DNA of 57,408 bases, taken from contig NVRM01000003.1 of NCBI GenBank assembly GCA_002400885.1, forward strand, positions 1-57,408, in the 5' to 3' direction. The first letter of the stretch is position 1. Each line of letters starts with the position of its first letter. Below, one piece after another: positions 34,645 to 49,675 of this stretch. The position numbers and the translations under genes were made by a program. This stretch comes from Flavobacteriaceae bacterium. GTDB lineage: Bacteria > Bacteroidota > Bacteroidia > Flavobacteriales > Flavobacteriaceae. A model generated the notes under the pieces. That model saw nothing but the letters and a program-made list of their open reading frames with translations. It was not told the origin of the DNA and ran no database searches.

Positions 34645-35310
34645 TTATTTTTTATTTCCTTTGTGTTTTATCAATTCTGCTTTTTTATAAAAGATTATTT
34701 CTTCCGCAATATTTTTAATCAAATCCCCTACGCGTTCATACTTTTTAATGATAGAAGAAAGTTGCAAGGCTTTGCCTATAATCCCGGTATCTTTTTTAAT
34801 CTCAGCTTCTATAACAGAAAATGCCTCGCTATTAATCGCATCTAAAATCTTGTCTTTTTTAAACACTTTTCGTGCAGATTTTACATTTTCGTTTTCAAAA
34901 GCATCCATAATATCTTCGAACATATCCCGAATTGTCGCATGCATTTTTTCGAATTGTAAGACCTTAATTAAATGTTCTGGTGTTTTCGTTTCATCTTCGA
35001 CTACATATTTAGAAATCCCATAAGCATGATCTCCAATCCGTTCCAAATCAATATTGATTTTCAGTATCGCTATTACAAATCTCAAATCCGTGGCTACAGG
35101 CGTATACAAAGCCATATAGCGCTCACAATTCTTTTCAATGTAAATATCCAAGGCATTTACGTGGGCCTCGGTATAAATCACTTCCTCTGCCAGGTCCACA
35201 TCATTATTTAAATAGGCCTCTGTAGCTTTCTCTAACTGAGAAATACAAAGAGACATCATTTCTAAACCCGCTTGGTTTAGCAATTCTTTTTGGTGGTTTG
35301 CGTTTTCCAT
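34645..35310 (-). CDS. phoU: Phosphate signalling complex protein PhoU
   Basis: Two PhoU helical repeats (TPVATDLRFVIAILKINIDLERIGDHAYGISK, SSIIKKYERVGDLIKNIAEEIIFYKKAE). Confidence 0.94.
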   Translation of the reverse strand: MENANHQKELLNQAGLEMMSLCISQLEKATEAYLNNDVDLAEEVIYTEAHVNALDIYIEKNCERYMALYTPVATDLRFVIAILKINIDLERIGDHAYGISKYVVEDETKTPEHLIKVLQFEKMHATIRDMFEDIMDAFENENVKSARKVFKKDKILDAINSEAFSVIEAEIKKDTGIIGKALQLSSIIKKYERVGDLIKNIAEEIIFYKKAELIKHKGNKK

Positions 35311-35319
35311 ATCTATTGT

Positions 35320-36150
35320 TTATCCGAATCTTCCAGTGATGTAATTTTCGGTGCGTTTTTTTTCAGGTTTTGTAAATAATGTTTTTGTTTTACTGTATTC
35401 CACCAATTCTCCAATGTAGAAAAACGCAGTATAATCGCTAATTCTACTGGCTTGCTGCATGTTATGCGTCACAATAATAATGGTGTATTTTTCTTTTAAT
35501 CCAAAAATCAGATTTTCAATTTTAGCGGTAGAAATAGGATCCAGCGCCGATGTTGGCTCATCCATTAAAATGATAGATGGTTCCACAGCCAAGGTTCTAG
35601 CAATACACAAACGCTGTTGCTGTCCTCCAGACAATGCCAAGGCCGATTTTTTTAAGTCATCCTTTACTTCCTCCCATAAATCCGCTTGTCTTAATGCTTT
35701 CTCTACACGACTATCCAATACTTTTTTATCTGAAATCCCCTGTATTTTAAGACCATAAGCTACGTTTTCGTAAATAGACTTAGGGAACGGGTTCGGTTTT
35801 TGAAACACCATACCTACTTCTTTTCTAAGTTCTTCTACATGTATTTTCTTATTGTAAATATTGGTTCCATCGATCTTTATCTTACCCTCCATGCGGAATC
35901 CGTCTATATAATCGTTCATGCGATTAAATAATCGTAAAAAGGTTGATTTTCCACAACCAGAAGGTCCTATAAACGCCGTTACTGAATTAGGCTTGATATC
36001 CATGCTAATTCCTTTTACAGCCTCGAAATCACCATACCAAACTCTGGCGTTTTTTATAGAAATTTTAGTTTTACTTTCCTGCTCACTCTCCTTGTTCATT
36101 GTGAAATTTTTTGTGTTTTTTTCTGCTACTAATTCCATTTCTTTTGCCAT
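35320..36150 (-). CDS. pstB: Phosphate ABC transporter ATP-binding protein PstB
   Basis: [70 protein letters not shown]. True start could be an internal Met. Confidence 0.95.
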
Positions 36151-36983
36151 TTATTTCTATAATAAACGGCGACCGCATTCATCATAAAAGTTACTAATAA
36201 TAATATAATAATTGCCGCTGCGGCATTTTCTATAAACCCGTGTTGAGGCCTTGAAATCCAGTTAAATATTTGGATCGGTAAGACCGAGAACTCTTCCATT
36301 GGATTGCTTGGAGCAAAAGGCACATAGGCCAATGCCCCCACCACGATTAAGGGAGCCGTTTCACCAACCGCTCTGGATAAAGATAGGATTACCCCGGTTA
36401 AAATACCTCCACTTGAGGCGGGTAAAATCTGATTCCATATCGTTTGCCATTTCGACGCTCCTAAAGCATAAGATGCATCTCGGATAGTACTAGGAACTGC
36501 TTTTATAGATTCCCTGGTCGCTACAATAATTATAGGTAATATCAATAAGGATAAGGTGAGACTTCCAGCCAATACACTTGCCCCTAAATTGAGGATACGC
36601 ACAAAAACTTCGAGTCCTAATAAACCATATATAATGGACGGTACTCCCGCCAAATTTGAGATATTAATTTCCAATAAAGCAGAAAACCTTCCTTTCTTTG
36701 CATATTCCTCTAAATAAATTGCTGCAGCCACACCGATGGGAAAAGCAATGATGGTTGTCAAAGCTAAAATCCAAAGACTCCCCATTAGGGCTGTGTAAAT
36801 TCCAGATTTTTCTGCTTTCCTAGAAGGTAAATTCATGACAAATCCCCAATCTATTCGCATGATACCATCAATTAAAATATCACCAATAAATAGCACCAAT
36901 AAAATCAATCCCACGAGCGTACATCCGATACCCCATATTTTAAATAATTGATCTTTCCATCTGTTTACTTGTATCTTATTCAT
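36129..36983 (-). CDS. pstA: Phosphate ABC transporter permease PstA
   Basis: [59 protein letters not shown]. Confidence 0.94.
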
Positions 36984-37854
36984 ATTTAGACTGGTATTTT
37001 TTTCGAATTCTATAACTGATTGTATTCAAAACAAATGTGAATGCAAATAAGGTAATTCCGGCAGCGAAAATGGTTCTATATTCAATGGAACCATGCTGTA
37101 CGTCACCCAAACTAACCTGAACAATATAAGCTGTAATGGTTTCGATAGGCACCATTGGATTTAATGTGAGTCTCGGTTGCTGCCCTGCTGCAACGGCTAC
37201 AATCATCGTTTCTCCAATAGCTCTAGAAATGGCCAATATAATGGACACTATAATCCCAGAAGAGGCTGCTGGAACCACTACTTTAAATGCTGTTTGCAAC
37301 TTGGTAGCTCCCATACCATAGGAAGCTTCTCTTAATTCTCTTGGCACCGCATGCAAGGCATCTTCACTGATAGACGAGATAAATGGAATAATCATAATCC
37401 CCATCACCAAACCTGCAGACAAGGAGTTAAATCCTGATAAATTAGGAAATATGCCTTGTAAATATGGAGTGACAATAATCAATGCAAAAAAACCATATAC
37501 TACCGTAGGAATCGCTGCCAGTAACTCTAACATAGGCTTGACCGTTTTCCTAAAACTTTTAGGAGCGTATTCACTTAAATAAATACTGATGGATAAGCCA
37601 ATAGGCAGGGCTACAGAAATAGCAATAGCTGATGTTAAAAATGTCCCAGAAAGCAGGGGTAAAATACCGTAGTGTTTATCGGTAAATAAAGGTGTCCATT
37701 GGGAATCTGTGAAAAAATCAAAGATAGAGACTTCTTTAAAAAAACGCACGGCTTCAAAAGCTAACACAGATACAATTCCTATGGTTACGGCAACCGTAAT
37801 TAAGGCACTAGTAAGCAGTGTTTTTTCGATGAAACCTTCTTTAAATTTACGCAT
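36976..37854 (-). CDS. pstC: Phosphate ABC transporter permease PstC
   Basis: SISEDALHAVPRELREASYGMGATKLQTAFKVVVPAASSGIIVSIILAISRAIGETMIVAVAAG. Confidence 0.94.
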   Translation of the reverse strand: MRKFKEGFIEKTLLTSALITVAVTIGIVSVLAFEAVRFFKEVSIFDFFTDSQWTPLFTDKHYGILPLLSGTFLTSAIAISVALPIGLSISIYLSEYAPKSFRKTVKPMLELLAAIPTVVYGFFALIIVTPYLQGIFPNLSGFNSLSAGLVMGIMIIPFISSISEDALHAVPRELREASYGMGATKLQTAFKVVVPAASSGIIVSIILAISRAIGETMIVAVAAGQQPRLTLNPMVPIETITAYIVQVSLGDVQHGSIEYRTIFAAGITLFAFTFVLNTISYRIRKKYQSKYE

Positions 37855-37919
37855 TTGTAAATGGTTAAATTTAGAAAACCAACGGCCTATACCGTTGATT
37901 TTCGAATGGTTATTAAATG

Positions 37920-38876
37920 CTATTTATTTTTTAGTACAAAAGCCTTGAATCGTTCTATTTGAGTATCGTACATTTCTTGAGGTAATGGAATATACCCTAC
38001 ATCTTTAGATAATTCACCTGCATTTTTCAAATAAAACTCTACAAAGGTCACCACTTCTTTAGCAGCAACTGATGTACTATTTACATATAAAAATAAGGGT
38101 CTTGACAAGGGGCTATAGCTTCCATTACTTACCGTTTCTAAGGTTGGTTTTACAACTTCGGTACCGTTATGTACTCCTATTAAAGATAACTTTTCTTTGT
38201 TTTCACTGTAATATGCCAGTCCGAAAAAACCCAAGGCATATTTATCTCCTACTATCCCTTGTACCAATACATGATCATCCTCACTTGCCGTAAAATCTCC
38301 ACGGCTAGATCCGCTTTTTCCAACAATTGCTTTTGTAAAATAATCATAGGTTCCAGAAGCGACACCAGGACCGAACAAATGAATTTCCTCATTAGGCCAT
38401 TCTGGTCTGATCTGATTCCATTTCATAATAACTCCCTGAGCTGCTGGCTCCCAAATCTTTTTCAATTCTTCTACTGTAAAACTATCTACCCAATCATTTT
38501 TAGGATTCACCAATACCGCTAAACCATCATACGCAACTTCTAATTCTATATAGCTGATATTATTGGTTGCACAGGCAGCCATTTCTTTATCCTTAATCGG
38601 ACGTGAAGCGTTGGATAGATTTGTTTCTCCTCTAGAGAATTTCTTAAATCCACCTCCCGTTCCAGAAATACCAATCGTCACTTTTACTTTTGGAGCTACT
38701 TCCCTAAACTCTTCGGCAACAGCTTCTGTTATTGGGTACACGGTACTAGAACCATCTATTCTAATCGTTCCAGACAAGGCTGTCTCACCTTGTACTAGCG
38801 TTTTTTTATTTGTTGTTGTTTCTCCACAAGCAATTATTATAGCGGAAAAAATCGTTAAAAAAAGTATTTTTTTCAT
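37920..38876 (-). CDS. pstS: Phosphate-binding protein PstS family (lipoprotein)
   Basis: Lipobox [66 protein letters not shown]. Confidence 0.93.
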
Positions 38877-38901: not shown

Positions 38902-38998
38902 CAAATAAAGGCAACAGATATAACTTGATTGTTAGCTAAAGATGAAGAAATAGCTCTTTTTAGGTTAGTTGAATGTTATGAACTTAACGAGAACTTAA
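38902..38998 (-). promoter_or_regulatory. Candidate Pho-box promoter of pstSCAB-phoU
   Basis: CAAATAAA (38902-38909; coding strand TTTATTTG), 19-nt gap, heptamer TTGTTAG 38929, then AGGTTAG 38962 and ATGTTAT 38973 in the same 11-nt register; further AACTTAA-cgag-AACTTAA at 38981-38998. Confidence 0.6.
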
Positions 38999-39132: not shown

Positions 39133-40332
39133 TTAAAAATCTATCTGAAAACGCAATTGAAAAGCACTAAATTGTCCTTTCCCTGTATAGTCTGTCGTAT
39201 TTTCAATAGTAGAAATCACATAATTTACCATCACACGGGTAGCAGGATTCAGGTGCCAGTTTAGGCCCGTCGTAACATTGCTCATTTTATCCATGTTCAT
39301 CCCATCGATATATGAATACCTCAAAGCAATCTGAAGTGCTCCATAGCCATTCTCTCCAAAGTTATTTAGTGGTTTTACACGTCCAAATCCAACTAATGAA
39401 TTTTTATAAACTCTTTTTTCGCCTGTTAAAAAATAACTTGCCTGAAAGTAATAACTAGAAAAATCTTGATTTTCAATAGCATTGACCTTTGCTTTTAAAA
39501 ACTCTCCTTGTAAAGAAAAAGAGTTGGCTACCCAGGCCATCTCAACATTCATCAGATTCACATGATCCACCCCGGAAACAGCCGTCACGATGTATTTATT
39601 AGAGATATGAGTTTCAGGTCGAACTGTATACCCATAATGGGTATCTTCTTGTGGTTTTCTATAACTATACCCAGCTCCTACATGTAACAAGTTATCGTCA
39701 TTCTTGATCACTAAACCAGCAACTCTCCCTGTTACCGCATAATCTCCATTTGCAACTTTTTTATCAGAAGAAGCATCAGCTCCTCTAAAGACTCCAAGCT
39801 GCCAAGACATTTTCTTCTCCGAAAACTGATCAAACAACATGGCTCCAGAACTACGTTCGCCCAACATACTAATAACTGTAGCACGTTCCATAAATGTAAA
39901 ATACTTACTACTAGTTAAGGCTTCTAATCTAAACGGCTCTTTAAAATGCCCGACTCTTAAATGACCTACAGGCAATTCTCTTAGGGTAATAAATGCATCT
40001 TTCAGTGTCACTTTACCTCCTGCAAAATCTACATTTAATTTAAAATCTACATTTTTATAAAGAGTACCAGACATAAAAAAACGTGCTCTTCGTAACTCTG
40101 TTCCGTTCGAAGATTTCAAAGAATACCCGTTCTTTTCTGCTTCATCATTCAATCCAAAAAAGCCCATATCATACATGATACGCCCACCAAAACTCAACTT
40201 TATACTTTTATCAGCATTGGTAACTTTAAATCCATTGTCCCACTTAATAGAAAACGGATTCTCCTTTTCTTGAGCGCTTACGCCTGTACATACACTCCAT
40301 AAAAATACGAATATTGCGACTCTATTTCTCAT
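39133..40332 (-). CDS. OprO/OprP-like phosphate-selective porin
   Basis: LSFGGRIMYDMGFFG, LRRARFFMSGTLYKNVDFKLNVDFAGGKVTLKDAFI, VGHFKEPFRLEALTSSKYFTFMERA. Confidence 0.88.
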   Translation of the reverse strand: MRNRVAIFVFLWSVCTGVSAQEKENPFSIKWDNGFKVTNADKSIKLSFGGRIMYDMGFFGLNDEAEKNGYSLKSSNGTELRRARFFMSGTLYKNVDFKLNVDFAGGKVTLKDAFITLRELPVGHLRVGHFKEPFRLEALTSSKYFTFMERATVISMLGERSSGAMLFDQFSEKKMSWQLGVFRGADASSDKKVANGDYAVTGRVAGLVIKNDDNLLHVGAGYSYRKPQEDTHYGYTVRPETHISNKYIVTAVSGVDHVNLMNVEMAWVANSFSLQGEFLKAKVNAIENQDFSSYYFQASYFLTGEKRVYKNSLVGFGRVKPLNNFGENGYGALQIALRYSYIDGMNMDKMSNVTTGLNWHLNPATRVMVNYVISTIENTTDYTGKGQFSAFQLRFQIDF

Positions 40333-40357: not shown

Positions 40358-40402
40358 CAAATAAACAACAGCTTTGTTAAGTTAAAGTTATGACTATGTT
40401 AT
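40358..40402 (-). promoter_or_regulatory. Candidate Pho-box promoter of the porin
   Basis: CAAATAAA 40358-40365; heptamers TTGTTAA 40374, AAGTTAT 40385 and ATGTTAT 40396, each 11 nt apart; 19-nt gap from CAAATAAA to 40385. Confidence 0.65.
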
Positions 40403-40426
40403 TTAAAAACAAAACTTCACACAAAA

Positions 40427-40508: not shown

Positions 40509-41711
40509 TTATTCTACAGTCCAACCTGCACCCCAAGTTGCGTAATCTGTCCCTGTTCCGTTTCCGTCTCCCGAGATAAAATCAGCTTCTGTAAAGGTAA
40601 ATCCAGTATCGTTTTTCATCTTTAAAGTAACATCTGTAAAAGTAATATCCTCTACTTTTAACACACCATCTACCACTCCTTTTCCAGTAGGGCTCGTAGT
40701 ATCGTCTCCATCTAGATCAAATCCTTCTTTAAATCCTATAATTTTAAAGTTTGAAAACACTCCTTGTGTACCTGCTCTTAAGCGTACTGCTTCTCCTCCA
40801 TCAGAAGATCCTAGACCAACAATAGTAACATTGCTTACCGTTGGAGCAGAGAAATAGTTTGTGTTTGAATTATTCCCTATATCGGTATTAAACCCATCCG
40901 CTTCTATTCCTTTATCATGATTTTCTCCATGTTTCACATAAGCATTGGTGATGTTTCCAGAATAGCCTTCTGTCCAGTCAATAGAATCATCTTGCGCATT
41001 TACAACCGATAAAAAACTAACATTAACAGTCCCTCCAAAGAATTCGATACCATCATCCAATCCCTCAAACATTTGAATATAAGAAACACGTGTTGCATTC
41101 CCTACTCCATAAAAAGAGAAGCCATTGTTCTCTGACTGACCATCTGCTTTTCCTCCCGAATATTCTACACGAACATATTTTAACGTTCCAGAATTATCCG
41201 CAACCACAGACCCTCCATAAGGTAAGGCTCCAATTTCTGAAGTAGACGTTAAATCACCACCAGTCACTGAGTTTATCGGTGCTTTTCCAAGAAGTATTAA
41301 CCCTCCCCAGTCTCCAGCTTTAGGAGCTGCAGCGTCAGAAGTAAAAACAATAGGTTTAGATACAGTACCTACCGCATTAATGGTCGCTCCTTGCGCTATT
41401 GCCACATAGATATCTGACCCTGCAGCCAATGCTTTTATAACAGTACCGGCTTCGATATTCAAGGTCGTCCCTTGAGTCATCACTAAGGCTCCATTTAAAA
41501 TATAAGTATTTGAAGCCTCTAAACTCAAATCTTCTACATAAGTCCCAGACAGGTAAATGGTTTCTGAAGTGCTTTGATTCTCAGCTCCATTATTATTCGT
41601 TACATTGTTCGTAGTGGTCGCGTTGATGATAATATCTGAAGTGTCATCATCTGCACAGGACACTGTAAAAATCGCTAAAAATGCTACTGCTATTTTAATT
41701 GTATTTTTCAT
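40509..41711 (-). CDS. Predicted surface lipoprotein, beta-helix-like
   Basis: Lipobox LAIFTVSC|ADDD; Gly/Asn-rich beta-repeat sequence (VYIA-like strands, DDGIEFFGGTVNVSFLSVVNAQDDSIDW); operonic with the TonB receptor. Confidence 0.75.
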   Translation of the reverse strand: MKNTIKIAVAFLAIFTVSCADDDTSDIIINATTTNNVTNNNGAENQSTSETIYLSGTYVEDLSLEASNTYILNGALVMTQGTTLNIEAGTVIKALAAGSDIYVAIAQGATINAVGTVSKPIVFTSDAAAPKAGDWGGLILLGKAPINSVTGGDLTSTSEIGALPYGGSVVADNSGTLKYVRVEYSGGKADGQSENNGFSFYGVGNATRVSYIQMFEGLDDGIEFFGGTVNVSFLSVVNAQDDSIDWTEGYSGNITNAYVKHGENHDKGIEADGFNTDIGNNSNTNYFSAPTVSNVTIVGLGSSDGGEAVRLRAGTQGVFSNFKIIGFKEGFDLDGDDTTSPTGKGVVDGVLKVEDITFTDVTLKMKNDTGFTFTEADFISGDGNGTGTDYATWGAGWTVE

Positions 41712-41750: not shown

Positions 41751-44567
41751 TTAAAATTTGTACTTCAATTGGAATCCTATATTCATTCCATATTTATATG
41801 ATTTAATTACGACGCTTTTATTGCCGGCTAATGTTCTCTCCACTTTAATTGCTGGATTCAATAGATTTTTTGCACTTAAATTTAATTCGAAATGTTTTCC
41901 TATGCTGTTTTTCCAAACAATATCTAATGTGGTAAATCCCTTTTCTATTTTATTCCCTAATTTCCCTGAACCCAATGCATAAATACGATCTGAGAAGTAA
42001 CTTGCCATTACATTGATGTCTGCATCTATCCCTTCTCCAAAAGAGGGATGAAAACTGATATCGGCATTCACCAATAAGGGCGAAGCACCTTGTAAGTCCT
42101 CTTTTTCTCTATCAAAACTAGTACTAAAGGTTCCACTTATAGTATTAAATAAATCCTGTTCCGTATCCATATACGCAACGTTAAACCCCGTTCCTAAAAT
42201 TGTTTTTCCTTGCGCATTCACTACAATGTTTTTCTTTAGCTCTAACTCCACACCTTTAATTATAGCCTTGTTCCCTGTTCTAAAAAACCGCTGCGTTCCT
42301 GTAGCATCATTTGCGACTACTAAGTTTACTGGATTCTTAATTTGCTTTGCAAACACCGCAACAGAAAGCATCTCGTCCGATGACATAAACCATTCATACT
42401 TTAAGTCTAGATTTAGAATATCCGAATAGGATAGGTTCTTTATATTGGTGTATTTCATTCCTTTTTGACGTCCTAATAAATCTGGATTCCCTCCAGTTCT
42501 ACTCGTTACCCCTTCATATACATACGGTGCCATTTCTTTAAATTCGGGAAAGGATACGGTATTACTCACCGCTAATCGAAGGTTTTGATCCTCCTGTAAA
42601 CCATATTTAATATTTAAACTTGGTAAATACAAATTCTCATCAATACTTGCTTGCCCAGGATTGTTTAATAAATTGATAACATCCCAAGAAATTTCTTGCT
42701 CAAATTTCTCCATTCTAATTCCCGGAACAAACAACCATTTACCCGCCTTTAATTCTGCCGATGCATATGGGGCCATTACGGTTAATTTTCCATTGTAAGT
42801 GTTTTCTAAAAGTCCAGGAAGATTTGTAGGTCCAAATCCACCTTCTGGATATATGGCGTTAAAAACATCTGTTTCAACTAGGCCATCCGTAATATTTTGG
42901 AGATTAAAAATCGCATTAAAGTTAGTTGGATCCACTACAATGCTTGTTGCAATATTTTTATAACCATAGCGCACATTTTCAAAATGACGTTTTTTGTATT
43001 TACCATCATAACCTACAAACAGCTTGAAATTATCTGAAGCCGCATAAGAAAATTGAAGCCTAGAAGTCAATTCAGCATCTTTAATGGTTTCGAAATAACG
43101 CTGGTTATCAAAGGAGTTATTTTGAAAAATTGTAGGGTTGGTCGTAGGATCATCATCCAAGGCATCTTGGTAATTTTCTAATGAAAACCGCTTGCGGTCT
43201 GGTTCCCTAGACACCACCCTATTATAGCCTAATCCCCAATCTACTTTTAACTTTTCATCTTTAGAACTGTGTGTTCCTAACAATTGATTGGTATAGATCA
43301 TGTCCTGGTTAAACTGTACGTTCATTTGATAAAAACCAGTATCTGTATTCAGTTTTGCATCTCTATTGGCTCCCATACCTTGGGTTCCATAATACCCTAC
43401 TTCGTCTTTCGAAGCATTTACAAACAATGAATTAAATGATAGTTTATTACGGTCATCTATACGATAGGATACATTCATGAGACTTGTCGTTGTATTTTTA
43501 GTTTCATACTTGTCTACATGGGGAAATTTCTTTTTTTCTACCGTTGTATAATCTACTTCCGATCCCGTGATAAAATTATATTGCTTCTCAAAAGCAATCG
43601 TAGCAAACAAACTTAAACGACTTTCTTCAGAAAAAGAGAAGCTCTTTCCTCCAACAATACTCGCGGTTATATTCACAGGAGACCATCCTTTTACAGGATC
43701 AACCTCATGAGACAATACCACCGCATACGGATTGTGATTATAACGGTTGTAAAAACCAAAACCTCCTGTTCCTTCAGACTGTTTAAAATCAGCACCGTTT
43801 ATCGCTGTATTACGACCTCCACCAAGTGAAATTTCCAACATTCCATCTCCGTTGTACTCCTTTGTTTTTATATTGATATTCCCAGCAGCAAAATCACCAT
43901 ATAACTGAGCAGAATACGCTTTACTTACACTTACATTCTCAATAATATCTGTAGAAAATAAATTTAAATCTATATTCTTTTTATTAATATTATTGGAAGG
44001 AAGCGACAAACCATTTAACGTTGTGTTCAGGTAACGATCTCCTAAACCACGTACATACACATTGCTAGATCCTTCCTTAGAGATTCCAGAAATTTTAGAC
44101 ACTGCAGCAGCGGCATCACCTATTCCTTTTTGAGAAAGTTCTTCGGCACCAATACTTTGCTCAATAGACACTGCTTTCTTTTGTGCAGCTAATAAGGCAG
44201 AAACAGACTCCTTTTTTACAGTTCCTTGGATTAAAATTTCGTTCAATGTAACCCCACTACTCGAGTTTAATGTTTTATTTAAAACAACCGTTTCTCCACT
44301 GGTAATTAATACTCCTTCCTGACTTATTGTTTCATATCCTAAAAAACTAAACACAACAGTATAGCTTCCCGGAGCAATTTTAAATCTATAGGTCCCATCC
44401 ATTTCAGTAGTAGTCCCTATGGTCGTTCCTTTTATATAGACATTCGCAAATGGCAAAGACTCGTTATTAAACTCCTTGTCGTAGATTGTCCCTCTTAGTG
44501 TTCCTTTCTCTTGTGCAAAAGAAACCGTAAAAGTAAACATCAATAAAACTGTAATAATTTTCTTCAT
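41751..44567 (-). CDS. TonB-dependent receptor with CarbopepD-reg-like N-terminal domain (phosphate island)
   Basis: Signal peptide, TTTEMDGTYRFKIAPGSYTVVFSFLGYE domain, plug VYVRGLGDRYLNTTLNGLSLPS, C-terminal YKYGMNIGFQLKYKF. Confidence 0.9.
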   Translation of the reverse strand: MKKIITVLLMFTFTVSFAQEKGTLRGTIYDKEFNNESLPFANVYIKGTTIGTTTEMDGTYRFKIAPGSYTVVFSFLGYETISQEGVLITSGETVVLNKTLNSSSGVTLNEILIQGTVKKESVSALLAAQKKAVSIEQSIGAEELSQKGIGDAAAAVSKISGISKEGSSNVYVRGLGDRYLNTTLNGLSLPSNNINKKNIDLNLFSTDIIENVSVSKAYSAQLYGDFAAGNINIKTKEYNGDGMLEISLGGGRNTAINGADFKQSEGTGGFGFYNRYNHNPYAVVLSHEVDPVKGWSPVNITASIVGGKSFSFSEESRLSLFATIAFEKQYNFITGSEVDYTTVEKKKFPHVDKYETKNTTTSLMNVSYRIDDRNKLSFNSLFVNASKDEVGYYGTQGMGANRDAKLNTDTGFYQMNVQFNQDMIYTNQLLGTHSSKDEKLKVDWGLGYNRVVSREPDRKRFSLENYQDALDDDPTTNPTIFQNNSFDNQRYFETIKDAELTSRLQFSYAASDNFKLFVGYDGKYKKRHFENVRYGYKNIATSIVVDPTNFNAIFNLQNITDGLVETDVFNAIYPEGGFGPTNLPGLLENTYNGKLTVMAPYASAELKAGKWLFVPGIRMEKFEQEISWDVINLLNNPGQASIDENLYLPSLNIKYGLQEDQNLRLAVSNTVSFPEFKEMAPYVYEGVTSRTGGNPDLLGRQKGMKYTNIKNLSYSDILNLDLKYEWFMSSDEMLSVAVFAKQIKNPVNLVVANDATGTQRFFRTGNKAIIKGVELELKKNIVVNAQGKTILGTGFNVAYMDTEQDLFNTISGTFSTSFDREKEDLQGASPLLVNADISFHPSFGEGIDADINVMASYFSDRIYALGSGKLGNKIEKGFTTLDIVWKNSIGKHFELNLSAKNLLNPAIKVERTLAGNKSVVIKSYKYGMNIGFQLKYKF

Positions 44568-44588
44568 TTTAGTTAAATATTTCTACCA

Positions 44589-44666
44589 CAAATAAAGGAT
44601 AGAAATAAAAACAACAGGTTATCTAGATGTTATTCAATTGTGATAAATGAGTTAGCTAAAGGTTAT
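44589..44666 (-). promoter_or_regulatory. Candidate Pho-box array: five heptamers at exact 11-nt period upstream of the TonB receptor
   Basis: Plus strand CAAATAAA(44589)-N19-AGGTTAT(44616)-ctag-ATGTTAT(44627)-tcaa-TTGTGAT(44638)-aaat-GAGTTAG(44649)-ctaa-AGGTTAT(44660). Confidence 0.7.
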
Positions 44667-44758
44667 CGCAAAGACAATTAATTAAACGTTTTATAACGAG
44701 AAATTAACACTAAAAACAATATGGACGTATTTTATAGACTTCGGTGAAGTTCAAACAA

Positions 44759-45071: not shown

Positions 45072-45755
45072 TTAATCAACAATCCCTAATTCTTTTGCAA
45101 TTGTAAAAAGGTCTATATTATTATTTGCATCCAAATCAATACGCAGGTTACTCAACTTGTTTTCAATAGTTCTTAAGCTCAATTCTACTCCTTTAGCATT
45201 TTGAATGACCCCTACCATATTCTTAATTTTAGAATGCCTCGGAAGTTCTTTTAATATTTGAATAGCGACATCATCCATTTGAATTTCAACAATTCTTCGT
45301 CTCATCAATTTTTCATGAATAGAATGGGTGTAAAAATACTCGTTATTCAACATTTTTTGAACGGCAAAATAGAGTTCATCCTTAGAACAGTTACTCTTTA
45401 AAATATAAGCTAAAGGCTTTAAATTATGAATTACATTAAACACTCTATTAATAGAAGAATGCCCAGTAATCACACCTGTTTTAGGTCTAATTCCATCCCT
45501 ATCCAGTTTTTTCATCAGCGCTTCTCCGTCTTCAATTTCGTCTGTATTGTTAACGTTTTCAAAACTAAGATCTGTAAATAGGATATCAAATGCCTCGTTA
45601 GCAACTGCCGCTTTTTTAATCTCTTTATAAGCAGCATCACAATTAGTCTTTCCAATAATTTCTATTTCGTCATACTTATTTAATGCGTTCACAATACCTT
45701 CTAGTAAAAAGCTATGATCATCTACGGCAATTATTTTAACTATTCCTTTTTTCAT
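45072..45755 (-). CDS. Response regulator (REC + LuxR-like HTH)
   Basis: VDDHSFLLEGI, phospho-acceptor Asp in ILFTDLSF, T in GVITGHSS, K in AYILKSN; C-terminal LSLRTIENKLSNLRIDL HTH-like segment. Confidence 0.85.
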   Translation of the reverse strand: MKKGIVKIIAVDDHSFLLEGIVNALNKYDEIEIIGKTNCDAAYKEIKKAAVANEAFDILFTDLSFENVNNTDEIEDGEALMKKLDRDGIRPKTGVITGHSSINRVFNVIHNLKPLAYILKSNCSKDELYFAVQKMLNNEYFYTHSIHEKLMRRRIVEIQMDDVAIQILKELPRHSKIKNMVGVIQNAKGVELSLRTIENKLSNLRIDLDANNNIDLFTIAKELGIVD

Positions 45756-45776
45756 TTTCTTTTTTCTTTTTCTCTA

Positions 45777-47747
45777 TTAAAACCCCACACTAATTTGTGT
45801 AATCGTTCCAATATTTAATTTACTTTGAATTAAAAATTCGCCTTTTAACTTAAGGATCCTTTCTCTAATGTTTTTCAGTCCAATTCCGTTTCTTTTACTG
45901 TCTGTGTTAAAACCACGACCATTATCCGTTATAACTACTTTTGTCTTGTTTTCATGTACGGAAAACACAATTTTTATCAAGGTTGCGTCGGCATGTTTGA
46001 CCGTATTTTGAATGGTCTCTCTCACTCCTAAAAATAAAGCTTGTTTTTGAGGAACCGTAGTTTTTCTTAAATCTAAATGATCTAATCCTTTTAAATCTAG
46101 CTTAAAATTGTCCTTCTCATAGCTTGTTATTAAATTCTTGATTTGTGTTTTAAATGTAACCGTATCAAAATTTCTAATAGTTATCTCCTGTGAAAAAGAT
46201 TCTATTAGCTCTGACACCATTTCGGTTTCTATGGCTAGCTTGAGCTCTTGGTTTACTTCTAGGTGATGTTTTACTCTTTTTAAGGTAGTCGCTACATCTT
46301 TCCCCAATCGCTCCCCTATATCAAGCCTTTCTTCTTCCTTTACTTTCGCCTTGATTAGTTCTTGTTCGAAGCTCGTTTTAGATTTTTTATAATTAAACTT
46401 CATCAATAAAATAGCCATGAACAATAATAGGGCAACAATGGACAATAATATAATTACCCCTAATTGCTTCCTGTATTCAAACTCCTTTTGTTTCACTAAA
46501 TTGTCTTTAAACAAGGCCTCATTTTCCTGTTGCTTTTTTAAGGTTTCGTATTCAATACCCATCATACTATTTTTAGTATGGTATTTCATGTTATCCAAGC
46601 TATCGTTTAACTTTTTATATGCTTTTGCATATTTCAAGGAATTCTCTTCATCTATTTCCGTGAGGAATAATAAATTATTAAGCGTACGGTCATTAGATGC
46701 TACTTTCCGAGAAATCTTTAAAGCTCTCTTTGCATGAAACAGTGATTTTTTTAATTCCCTTGGTTTTTTTTTATAAAAATAATAGCCCCTATAAAAATCA
46801 ATAAATGTTAATACTCTATAATCATCCGAAAGTATCCCTATTTCATACGCCTCGTTGTAATTTTCCAATATCTGATCACTATTCCCTTCTAAAAAATTTG
46901 AATGTGCCAAATTAGCGAGCATCATGCTATAAAACCTAGGGAATTTTTCTTTTAGATTTTTTATTTTCAAGCCTTTTTCTAAGTAATAAATTACCGAATC
47001 TTTTTGTCCTCCAAAATAACTCGAATAAGAAAGGTTATTCAAAGCATTTGCCATTAACAAGGTATCCTTTTGTTTTACCGCTACTCTGTACACTTTCTTA
47101 TACAAATCTATCGAGGCTTCGATATCTTCCTGTTCAAATTTACAGGAAGCCAATAACATGTATAATGAATTGATAAACAATGGTTGTTTGGCCCCTGGCT
47201 CTAAATACATCAAACCATTTATGATGGTTTCCTCTGCCTTTTCATATTCATGACGCAGTAATTCTGATTTCGCAACATTATAAGATACCACACCATTAAA
47301 AATGGAATCACCTTCTTTTACTCCTAATGCTTTTGCTTTTTTAAAACAAGTATAGGCACTATCTGTCAAAACCTGCTCTCTCAAGGAAATTCCTAGGTAG
47401 CGATAATAATCATAATTATCTTTATATGCACGCTCTCCAAATGACCGTATCTCTTCAAGAACCATACTTAATTCTGTATATTTATCCCTGTAAATATACA
47501 AGTCCGCAATATTTAACCTCGCATCCATTCGCAAAGAATCTATCATCAAATAGTCAGAAATATCTATCGCTTTTAATGCATCTTTTTTATTGACATTAAA
47601 ACCTAAGGAGTCCATTTCAGACCTATCTATAAAATAGTAAACACTATCAAGTAATCTATTTTTACGCGTCATTTCTTGTGAAAATCCTACTTGAATTGTA
47701 ATTAAAAAGATTACAAAGAATACCGATGTTATTTTTCTATAAATCAT
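45777..47747 (-). CDS. TPR sensor histidine-kinase-like protein with intact HATPase but no phospho-acceptor His
   Basis: N-terminal TPRs, TM segment, DHp-like EEERLDIGERLGKDVATTLKRVKHHL (His replaced), HATPase RETIQNTVKHAD...VVITDNGRGF...NGIGLKNIRERI. Confidence 0.85.
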   Translation of the reverse strand: MIYRKITSVFFVIFLITIQVGFSQEMTRKNRLLDSVYYFIDRSEMDSLGFNVNKKDALKAIDISDYLMIDSLRMDARLNIADLYIYRDKYTELSMVLEEIRSFGERAYKDNYDYYRYLGISLREQVLTDSAYTCFKKAKALGVKEGDSIFNGVVSYNVAKSELLRHEYEKAEETIINGLMYLEPGAKQPLFINSLYMLLASCKFEQEDIEASIDLYKKVYRVAVKQKDTLLMANALNNLSYSSYFGGQKDSVIYYLEKGLKIKNLKEKFPRFYSMMLANLAHSNFLEGNSDQILENYNEAYEIGILSDDYRVLTFIDFYRGYYFYKKKPRELKKSLFHAKRALKISRKVASNDRTLNNLLFLTEIDEENSLKYAKAYKKLNDSLDNMKYHTKNSMMGIEYETLKKQQENEALFKDNLVKQKEFEYRKQLGVIILLSIVALLLFMAILLMKFNYKKSKTSFEQELIKAKVKEEERLDIGERLGKDVATTLKRVKHHLEVNQELKLAIETEMVSELIESFSQEITIRNFDTVTFKTQIKNLITSYEKDNFKLDLKGLDHLDLRKTTVPQKQALFLGVRETIQNTVKHADATLIKIVFSVHENKTKVVITDNGRGFNTDSKRNGIGLKNIRERILKLKGEFLIQSKLNIGTITQISVGF

Positions 47748-49675
47748 ATATTCATTGTTGGAATTATAATAGTGTACCTTCCTTTATCTCCTATCATAGA
47801 TTTAACCTCTCCATTTATTTCTTGAATACTTTCTGTTACGCTGATAAAATAGGGAAGCTTCTTAAAATCAAAAAGTGCATTATATTCTTTGACTTCTGTT
47901 TTTATGATGTCATCCAACAAAGAAAAATTTATTTGAACGACATCACCTGTCGTATTTTTCACAATACTAAGTATCCCTAAATACAAAACCCGTTTTACAG
48001 AGGAGGCAATATTCCCCCATATCACATCATTTAAACCGGTGATTTTTATATCCAACGAAGGTTTAAAATTCTCTGTCACTAAATTTATTATCTGATCTTT
48101 AAACCCAACCTCTTCAAAACTTTCCGAACTTAACTCATGGGACATTTCTCTAACAATTTCCCCAATACTATTTACAGCTTTAGCCAATTTATGATCCCCT
48201 GTGTTTTTAATCCTTAAATGCAACATGTTTAAATCTCCTGCTATTTCGTCATGTAGCTTTTTCGCCAATCGTTGTCGCTCTTCTTCTCTAGCCTCTACCC
48301 TTTCTAACTTTTCTATATAAAGTTGTTTTTTCTTTCGCTGTACAATACTATAGCTCAATGTAATAAACATCAGAAAAGCAGCTAACAATCCCAGTCCAGA
48401 AATTATATTATTAAACTGTACCTTTTCTATGACCGATTTTTTTTGCGTATTCTCTTTTTTCAAGGCTAAATTCAACTGCTCTTTTCGATTTACTTCAAAC
48501 TTAATTTTAGAAATTTTTGTCCGAACATCTTTATTTAAAAAATTGATACTATCCGTTAAGCGCAAATATTGAGAGGTATATTTTATCGCCTTATACGTAT
48601 CTAAAGATGCGCCTAAAAACAATGCAGCATACAGGTTTTCCAATTCATTAGATGAAAAATTACCGATGGCTAGATTGATATGTTTTTCAGCTTTAGCATA
48701 CTCAAGCCTTTCTTTATACACTTTTGCCAATCTAAAATGAAGCTCAAACAATAAATTACCAAAACCTTCTTTTTTACACATAGTAATATACTGAGCGCTC
48801 TCTGTAAAAAAGTGTTTGTTTCCGTATTTATAATAAGCGGTATAACTCCTGTTACTGATTAAGGAAACATCCTCCTTGTCTGCTAGTTTTTGAGATTTTT
48901 TTATAGCAATTCCCTTTTCAAAATAATAAAAAGCAGAATCATATGATTTTTGGGAGAGCAGCATTGTTCCTATTTTATTATACGCATAAGCTATACTCGT
49001 TGAATCTTCAAAATTTACGGCCCTGTTCTTTAGAACAAACAAGTCTTGATAGGCCTCTTCCTTATTGCCCATTTTAAACTCGACCTTGGATTTTAATAGA
49101 TATAGGCTGTTTGAAATCTTAAAATCATTCACTGCCAAAGGAATATCTAGGCCCAACAAGATGTTTTTTTTTGCCCCAACATATTCCTGACATTCATACA
49201 GTATACGTGAAATATTATAGTACCCTATTTTACTTTGATGATTATTCTCCTGAAGCAAACTGCTTTTTAATCCCTTATTGTAAAAATAAAAGGCACTATC
49301 TCCCACATGTTTAAAATGATAAAAGGCTCCCTTTTTATACCAGTAATTATTAAGAACAACCTTGGAGGAATGAACCGTAGACCTTTCTAGGTCTAAAAAT
49401 ATTTTTTGAAGACGCACTAAGGAATTATTTTTAGAAAACAAAAAGCCAACAAGATTTAAATTTGCAGTGATAATAGCCTCCTTGTTTTGATTCCTTTCTG
49501 CAATCTTTACTGATTTTTCTGCAAATGACAAGCGAAGACTTTCCGAAAACTGAAGTTTCTCGGATTTTTCAATGTAATAAGTAACGCTATCTAATTCCGA
49601 AGTAAGTAACTGAATTTGAGCATACCCACAACAAAACACACATAGAAAAAAAAGCATTATTGTGCCTTTCAACAT
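47744..49675 (-). CDS. TPR sensor histidine-kinase-like protein with canonical HisKA_3 His but degenerate HATPase
   Basis: N-terminal TPRs, TM segment, EEERQRLAKKLHDEIAGDLNMLHLRI; C-terminus LGILSIVKNTTGDVVQINFSLLDDIIKTEVKEYNALFDF lacks DxGxG and GxGL. Stop overlaps next start (ATGA). Confidence 0.83.
   Translation of the reverse strand: MLKGTIMLFFLCVFCCGYAQIQLLTSELDSVTYYIEKSEKLQFSESLRLSFAEKSVKIAERNQNKEAIITANLNLVGFLFSKNNSLVRLQKIFLDLERSTVHSSKVVLNNYWYKKGAFYHFKHVGDSAFYFYNKGLKSSLLQENNHQSKIGYYNISRILYECQEYVGAKKNILLGLDIPLAVNDFKISNSLYLLKSKVEFKMGNKEEAYQDLFVLKNRAVNFEDSTSIAYAYNKIGTMLLSQKSYDSAFYYFEKGIAIKKSQKLADKEDVSLISNRSYTAYYKYGNKHFFTESAQYITMCKKEGFGNLLFELHFRLAKVYKERLEYAKAEKHINLAIGNFSSNELENLYAALFLGASLDTYKAIKYTSQYLRLTDSINFLNKDVRTKISKIKFEVNRKEQLNLALKKENTQKKSVIEKVQFNNIISGLGLLAAFLMFITLSYSIVQRKKKQLYIEKLERVEAREEERQRLAKKLHDEIAGDLNMLHLRIKNTGDHKLAKAVNSIGEIVREMSHELSSESFEEVGFKDQIINLVTENFKPSLDIKITGLNDVIWGNIASSVKRVLYLGILSIVKNTTGDVVQINFSLLDDIIKTEVKEYNALFDFKKLPYFISVTESIQEINGEVKSMIGDKGRYTIIIPTMNI

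Follow-up and report, generated by a model that had tools for sequence, protein, structure and literature searches.

What is the function of the short, regularly spaced repeats that precede a TonB-dependent receptor (TBDT) gene in a phosphate island of a member of the Flavobacteriaceae? We analysed these repeats within the window, the whole stretch of 57,408 nucleotides in which they lie, and then across genomes. The array very probably serves as operator and promoter for a phosphate-starvation (Pho) gene, on which PhoB dimers bound to six predicted half-sites would activate the receptor. The features around the receptor promoter are as follows.

44647..44668, minus strand: predicted distal Pho box, units U1 (CGATAACCTTT) and U2 (AGCTAACTCAT), the TAAC of both kept in receptor orthologues
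44625..44646, minus strand: predicted middle Pho box, units U3 (TTATCACAATT, weak) and U4 (GAATAACATCT), U3 being degenerate in most orthologues, yet in register
44603..44624, minus strand: predicted proximal Pho box, units U5 (AGATAACCTGT, strongest) and U6 (TGTTTTTATTT, weak), over the -33 region
44589..44596, minus strand: -7 box TTTATTTG, 10 nt past the U6 heptamer
41751..44567, minus strand: TBDT of 938 aa (CarbopepD_reg_2, plug and barrel), downstream of the main array
40509..41711, minus strand: lipoprotein-like protein of 400 aa, next after the TBDT, matching a beta-helix lipoprotein that owns an array in other genomes
45072-49675: LuxR/NarL-type response regulator and TPR histidine kinase genes, ending just upstream of the TBDT array

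An earlier note had described five heptamers on the plus strand, and re-reading the sequence confirmed AGGTTAT, ATGTTAT, TTGTGAT, GAGTTAG and AGGTTAT at starts 44616, 44627, 44638, 44649 and 44660, together with CAAATAAA on the plus strand at 44589-44596, 19 nt from the heptamer array. The 11-nt spacing is exact, as claimed; what is conserved is a four-base core, TAAC, not a whole heptamer, and the units number six, arranged as three adjacent 22-bp boxes, rather than five. On the coding (minus) strand this core is common to U1 through U5. The weak sixth unit (44613-44603) occupies the gap between U5 and the -7 box and reads TTTAC(A) in orthologues. The best evidence for three adjacent boxes comes from a Bacteroidales Na/Pi cotransporter gene (locus L245), which has six perfect TAAC units upstream. 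The motif does differ from the enterobacterial Pho box, as had been observed, since its core is TAAC and the consensus CTGTCAT is absent.

The box TTTATTTG has one mismatch to TAnnTTTG, in agreement with its earlier description as a degenerate -7 box, and no evident or good -33 element was found at the TBDT promoter; both features are as expected of an activator-dependent promoter. Flavobacterial start sites place the -7 box at -12 to -5 (PMC9723704), which predicts a +1 near 44584 and positions U5-U6 over the -33 region. Taken as a whole, the array has the general build of a Pho box: at least two direct repeat units of 11 nt, with seven conserved and four variable positions; a proximal box that replaces the -35/-33 element at a fixed distance from the -10/-7 box; and a position before phosphate-acquisition genes (pstS, Porin_O_P, PiT, Na/Pi cotransporter and TBDT).

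Two further arrays lie in the same island.

40372..40404, minus strand: second array, U4-U6 only (AAATAACATAG TCATAACTTTA ACTTAACAAAG), upstream of Porin_O_P
40358-40365, minus strand: TTTATTTG of the Porin_O_P array
39133..40332, minus strand: Porin_O_P, predicted regulated gene
38916..38981, minus strand: third array, with U1, U2, degenerate U3 and U4, U5 and U6, upstream of pstS
38902-38909, minus strand: TTTATTTG of the pstS array
34645..38876, minus strand: pstS-pstC-pstA-pstB-phoU, predicted regulated operon

The placement of a Pho-box-like array before the TBDT of a phosphate island holds, as the gene adjoins Porin_O_P and pstSCAB-phoU, the array is conserved and its register to TTTG is fixed. 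Because the porin array consists of the three proximal units only, these units are probably the essential part. PDB and Pfam searches with the 400-aa lipoprotein-like protein gave no match.

When the 57 kb were scored for five TAAC units at 11 nt, the TBDT site was the best (19/20), and the next independent sites were those before Porin_O_P (from 40401) and pstS (from 38978), both at 16/20. TAAC arrays at periods of 9, 10, 12 and 13 gave no comparable pattern in the window. The full pattern, with up to three mismatches, matched twice (TBDT and pstS), where dinucleotide shuffles would give 0.06. The array is thus above chance, and the similar frequency in shuffled or unrelated regions that had been named as evidence against an array was not seen.

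To compare orthologous promoters, TBDT homologues were collected from 60 relatives together with their upstream regions. In 18 receptor promoters, drawn from the same genus and about 14 other genera, the units align without gaps over 84 columns, with TAA(C) at U1, U2, U4 and U5, a weak U3 and TTTAC(A) at U6. All 18 keep the same U5-core-to-TTTG distance, 29 nt without exception, and the coding sequences behind these promoters are only 35-56% identical outside the genus. The pstS promoters of five genomes show the same register as the receptor promoters, with U3-U4 degenerate, and several more distant TBDT homologues were without a clear array.

A sequence-only model (R1) was built from the 18 receptor promoters, with no other gene type included, and used to scan the whole of the bacterium's own genome (2.96 Mb, about 75% complete). 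This search gave four clear matches, upstream of the TBDT (60.1 bits), a 129-aa secreted protein (30.0 bits), Porin_O_P (21.2 bits) and pstS (21.2 bits), followed by a fifth-ranked match of 14.3 bits. Only the TBDT was in the training set, so the other three are held-out recoveries. A shorter model (R2), comprising the three proximal units and TTTG and trained on many gene types including those four sites, picked up, in addition, a phosphate transporter gene of the PiT type that begins 27 nt downstream of its match (20.3 bits). It also gave a weak match of 13.7 bits, in which three perfect TAAC units lie on the opposite strand within the region upstream of phoB. The 129-aa protein is CarbopepD_reg-like and has its own array on contig C145 (L045:1096-1485); comparable small genes, each preceded by an array, occur ~600-750 nt upstream of the TBDT or lipoprotein array in several relatives (G008, G019, G021 and G036). 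At three other loci (L095, L100 and L116), proteins of ~110 aa that resemble type IX sorting-domain remnants have upstream TAAC arrays without the usual -7 register.

Across the 60 relatives, R1 matches lie mostly before TBDTs, lipoproteins of ~420 aa, CarbopepD_reg proteins of ~125 aa, porins, pstS and PiT genes, with TTTG mostly 15-30 nt from the ATG (32-79 nt for the lipoproteins). An R1 match is present in 81/101 Flavobacterium genomes. On a genome resembling F. johnsoniae, R2 gave one strong match and many weak ones, several of the weak ones in coding or unrelated DNA. Most of the PhoX-domain genes (PF05787) in 30 genomes were without a clear array; this is a weak test, though not a supportive one, because PhoX of the F. 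johnsoniae-like genome likewise escaped the family search. Some R1 matches in one Bacteroidales genome were rejected as promoters, being 11-nt tandem repeats. An 11-nt tandem repeat, AGGTAACCTTT at L244 (G062:C64:77639-77693), is unrelated to the promoter array and partly matches the model.

The distribution of the design was examined by scanning GTDB r220 with the exact 20-base pattern TAAC N7 TAAC N18 TAAY N7 TAAC N25 TTTG, selecting for neither taxon nor gene position. At least 120 loci were found. Of the 120 listed, 118 were titled Bacteroidota, one was from Balneolaceae and one was from an archaeon without a gene in place; a rough estimate from base composition would put the number of matches by chance in the whole database at some one to five. 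Among the listed matches, 117/119 downstream reading frames start 8-76 nt past TTTG (most at 24-29 nt), and the encoded proteins, which contain a CarbopepD_reg domain in 92/119 cases and a TonB plug in 79/119, are mostly TBDTs, small carboxypeptidase-regulatory-domain proteins and beta-helix lipoproteins. Three hundred random other spacings tried on the listed loci yielded 0 matches, and shifting the last gap left at most one. In 200 Bacteroidota genomes, the pattern with one mismatch allowed gave 33 matches vs 2 for the reversed pattern; the genes that follow again include TBDTs, lipoproteins and a PstS from a distant class, the last behind a six-unit array. In much of the Bacteroidota, then, genes for phosphate scavenging are preceded by the spaced-repeat design.

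Two OmpR-family regulators were found in the bacterium's own genome, at about 75% completeness: a PhoB-like protein (L001) beside a PhoR-like kinase, and an RprY-like protein (L002). The phoBR pair sits on another contig, away from the TBDT array. The PhoB-like protein scored 206.6 bits against NCBIfam TIGR02154, below the cut-off of 296.2, which was still its best-matching family, and 205.4 against a Bacteroides-type PhoB model with a cut-off of 270. The separate contig and the sub-threshold scores weigh against the PhoB assignment. The genomic neighbourhoods elsewhere point to PhoB, as the Pho-box-like reading had anticipated: phosphate genes lie downstream, and in 23 of the 120 listed, independently found GTDB loci an orthologue about 72% identical (range 69-74%) to the PhoB-like protein lies divergent from the array, 74-194 nt away, usually with PhoR behind it. 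We infer that the array is bound by PhoB, that PhoB is phosphorylated and that the outcome is activation rather than repression.

Expression data from F. johnsoniae bear on the same point. The F. johnsoniae-like genome contains, in order, genes for a glycosyltransferase, OprP, PhoR, PhoB, the array, the TBDT, a lipoprotein and a CARDB protein, an order that matches Fjoh_0541 to Fjoh_0549, and its array precedes the TBDT matching Fjoh_0545. Upon phosphate depletion, this TBDT was up 8.02 log2-fold and the lipoprotein Fjoh_0546 9.91 log2-fold, and both are reported to belong to a set of loci under tight repression when N and Fe were limiting (PMC8115612). Phosphate depletion did not induce the porin Fjoh_0542 (log2FC -1.3; PMC8115612), although the oprP/porin of the F. 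johnsoniae-like genome has a well-formed array at L257:4867-4912; this counts against the Pho reading.

Direct repeats of 11 nt occur throughout the OmpR/PhoB family, and the array could in principle be the operator of another member, either RprY-like (L002) or a broad regulator similar to the PhoP of Riemerella and concerned with envelope stress. That the genome encodes two such regulators is in keeping with this proposal, as are three listed GTDB matches that precede moxR/Bat genes with no obvious phosphate gene, and the Riemerella PhoP motif has been likened to that of ArcA (PMC9603813). We nevertheless regard this explanation as unlikely, given that it is PhoB, not RprY, that lies divergent from the array in the 23 loci; that pstS, PiT, Na/Pi cotransporter and porin genes are among those downstream; and that Fjoh_0545 and Fjoh_0546 respond to phosphate (PMC8115612). 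The RprY matches at the listed array loci are ~33% identical and are therefore the same PhoB genes.

Control of the receptor through the repeats by the LuxR/NarL-type response regulator and TPR kinases encoded next to the array, on its upstream side, is highly improbable. Long 11-nt arrays are not the usual target of NarL-type regulators, which tend to recognise paired heptamers or inverted repeats, and this candidate was rejected because no homologue of the regulator or of a TPR kinase was present at any of the 120 listed array loci. A functionless low-complexity coincidence, for which the A+T richness of the region and the commonness of single TAAC words could be invoked, is refuted for practical purposes by the conservation of the array over many genera, the fixed 29-nt register and the near-zero counts of the reversed and decoy-spacing controls.

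We propose the following mechanism for PhoB at this promoter. At low phosphate, PhoR would phosphorylate PhoB, dimers of which would assemble head-to-tail on the six 11-nt half-sites, forming three 22-bp Pho boxes with the core TAAC on one helix face. The U5-U6 pair would sit over the -33 region, with 10 nt between it and the -7 box; since there is no good -33 element, PhoB is proposed to take over sigma recruitment there, and the receptor would be switched on. By analogy with E. coli PhoB, phosphorylated PhoB would thus bind and activate by standing in for the -33 contact. On balance, we incline to a broader view, in which the stereotyped six-half-site operator in helical register with the -7 box would be the ancestral Bacteroidota PhoB promoter, its three dimers working jointly in place of -33 recognition by the divergent primary sigma factor of the phylum, and in which the array may define a phosphate regulon centred on receptors of the outer membrane together with beta-helix lipoproteins and one small secreted protein.

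The E. coli Pho box lies ~10 nt from the -10 element, as the array here does from the -7 box. The two also share 11-nt repeats, which in E. coli have seven more and four less conserved bases, and boxes in tandem that overlie the upstream element of the promoter (PMC4415409). Unlike the E. coli box with its CTGTCAT, the array has a TAAC-based half-site, usually comprises three boxes in fixed order and operates with the Bacteroidota -7 box TAnnTTTG. The PhoP boxes of Bacillus subtilis are of the TTAACA type, with several TAACA-like half-sites ~11 nt apart near the core promoter, in a different phylum and with a different sigma factor. In Bacteroides fragilis, PhoB binding to the pst promoter has been detected by EMSA in a study that does not define the site (PMC3547664); it parallels the PhoB binding predicted here. 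The F. johnsoniae study gives no operator sequence, and the terms 'Pho box' and 'promoter' are absent from its text (PMC8115612). The open-access papers searched contained no description of the array and no published Bacteroidota PhoB binding site. The Pho box is a known kind of element; the TAAC half-site, the six-unit layout and the phylum-wide definition appear to be new.

The phosphate response of the Bacteroidota has so far been known from expression data. A fixed, nearly chance-free promoter signature would make phosphate regulons readable from the genomes and metagenomes of a phylum dominant in marine, soil and gut environments. The array also connects phosphate scavenging with uncharacterised lipoproteins and small proteins, and it offers a clean test of an activator working with the unusual -33/-7 promoter.

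Together with the B. fragilis EMSA, the closest published data concern PhoP of Riemerella anatipestifer, an OmpR-family regulator of the Flavobacteriales with a DAP-seq motif of core TTTAACA and with EMSA on a TBDT and a moxR promoter (PMC9603813). The array unit consensus (T/A)TAAC(A) overlaps this motif in its core letters. The passages of that study covered here describe a short motif at 583 peaks, and not a multi-unit array, a -7 register or a phosphate regulon (PMC9603813). In three Flavobacteriaceae (L126, L194 and L228), the exact array pattern lies 51-53 nt upstream of moxR/Bat genes, which, together with the binding of Riemerella PhoP to the moxR promoter (PMC9603813), hints at a role beyond phosphate uptake.
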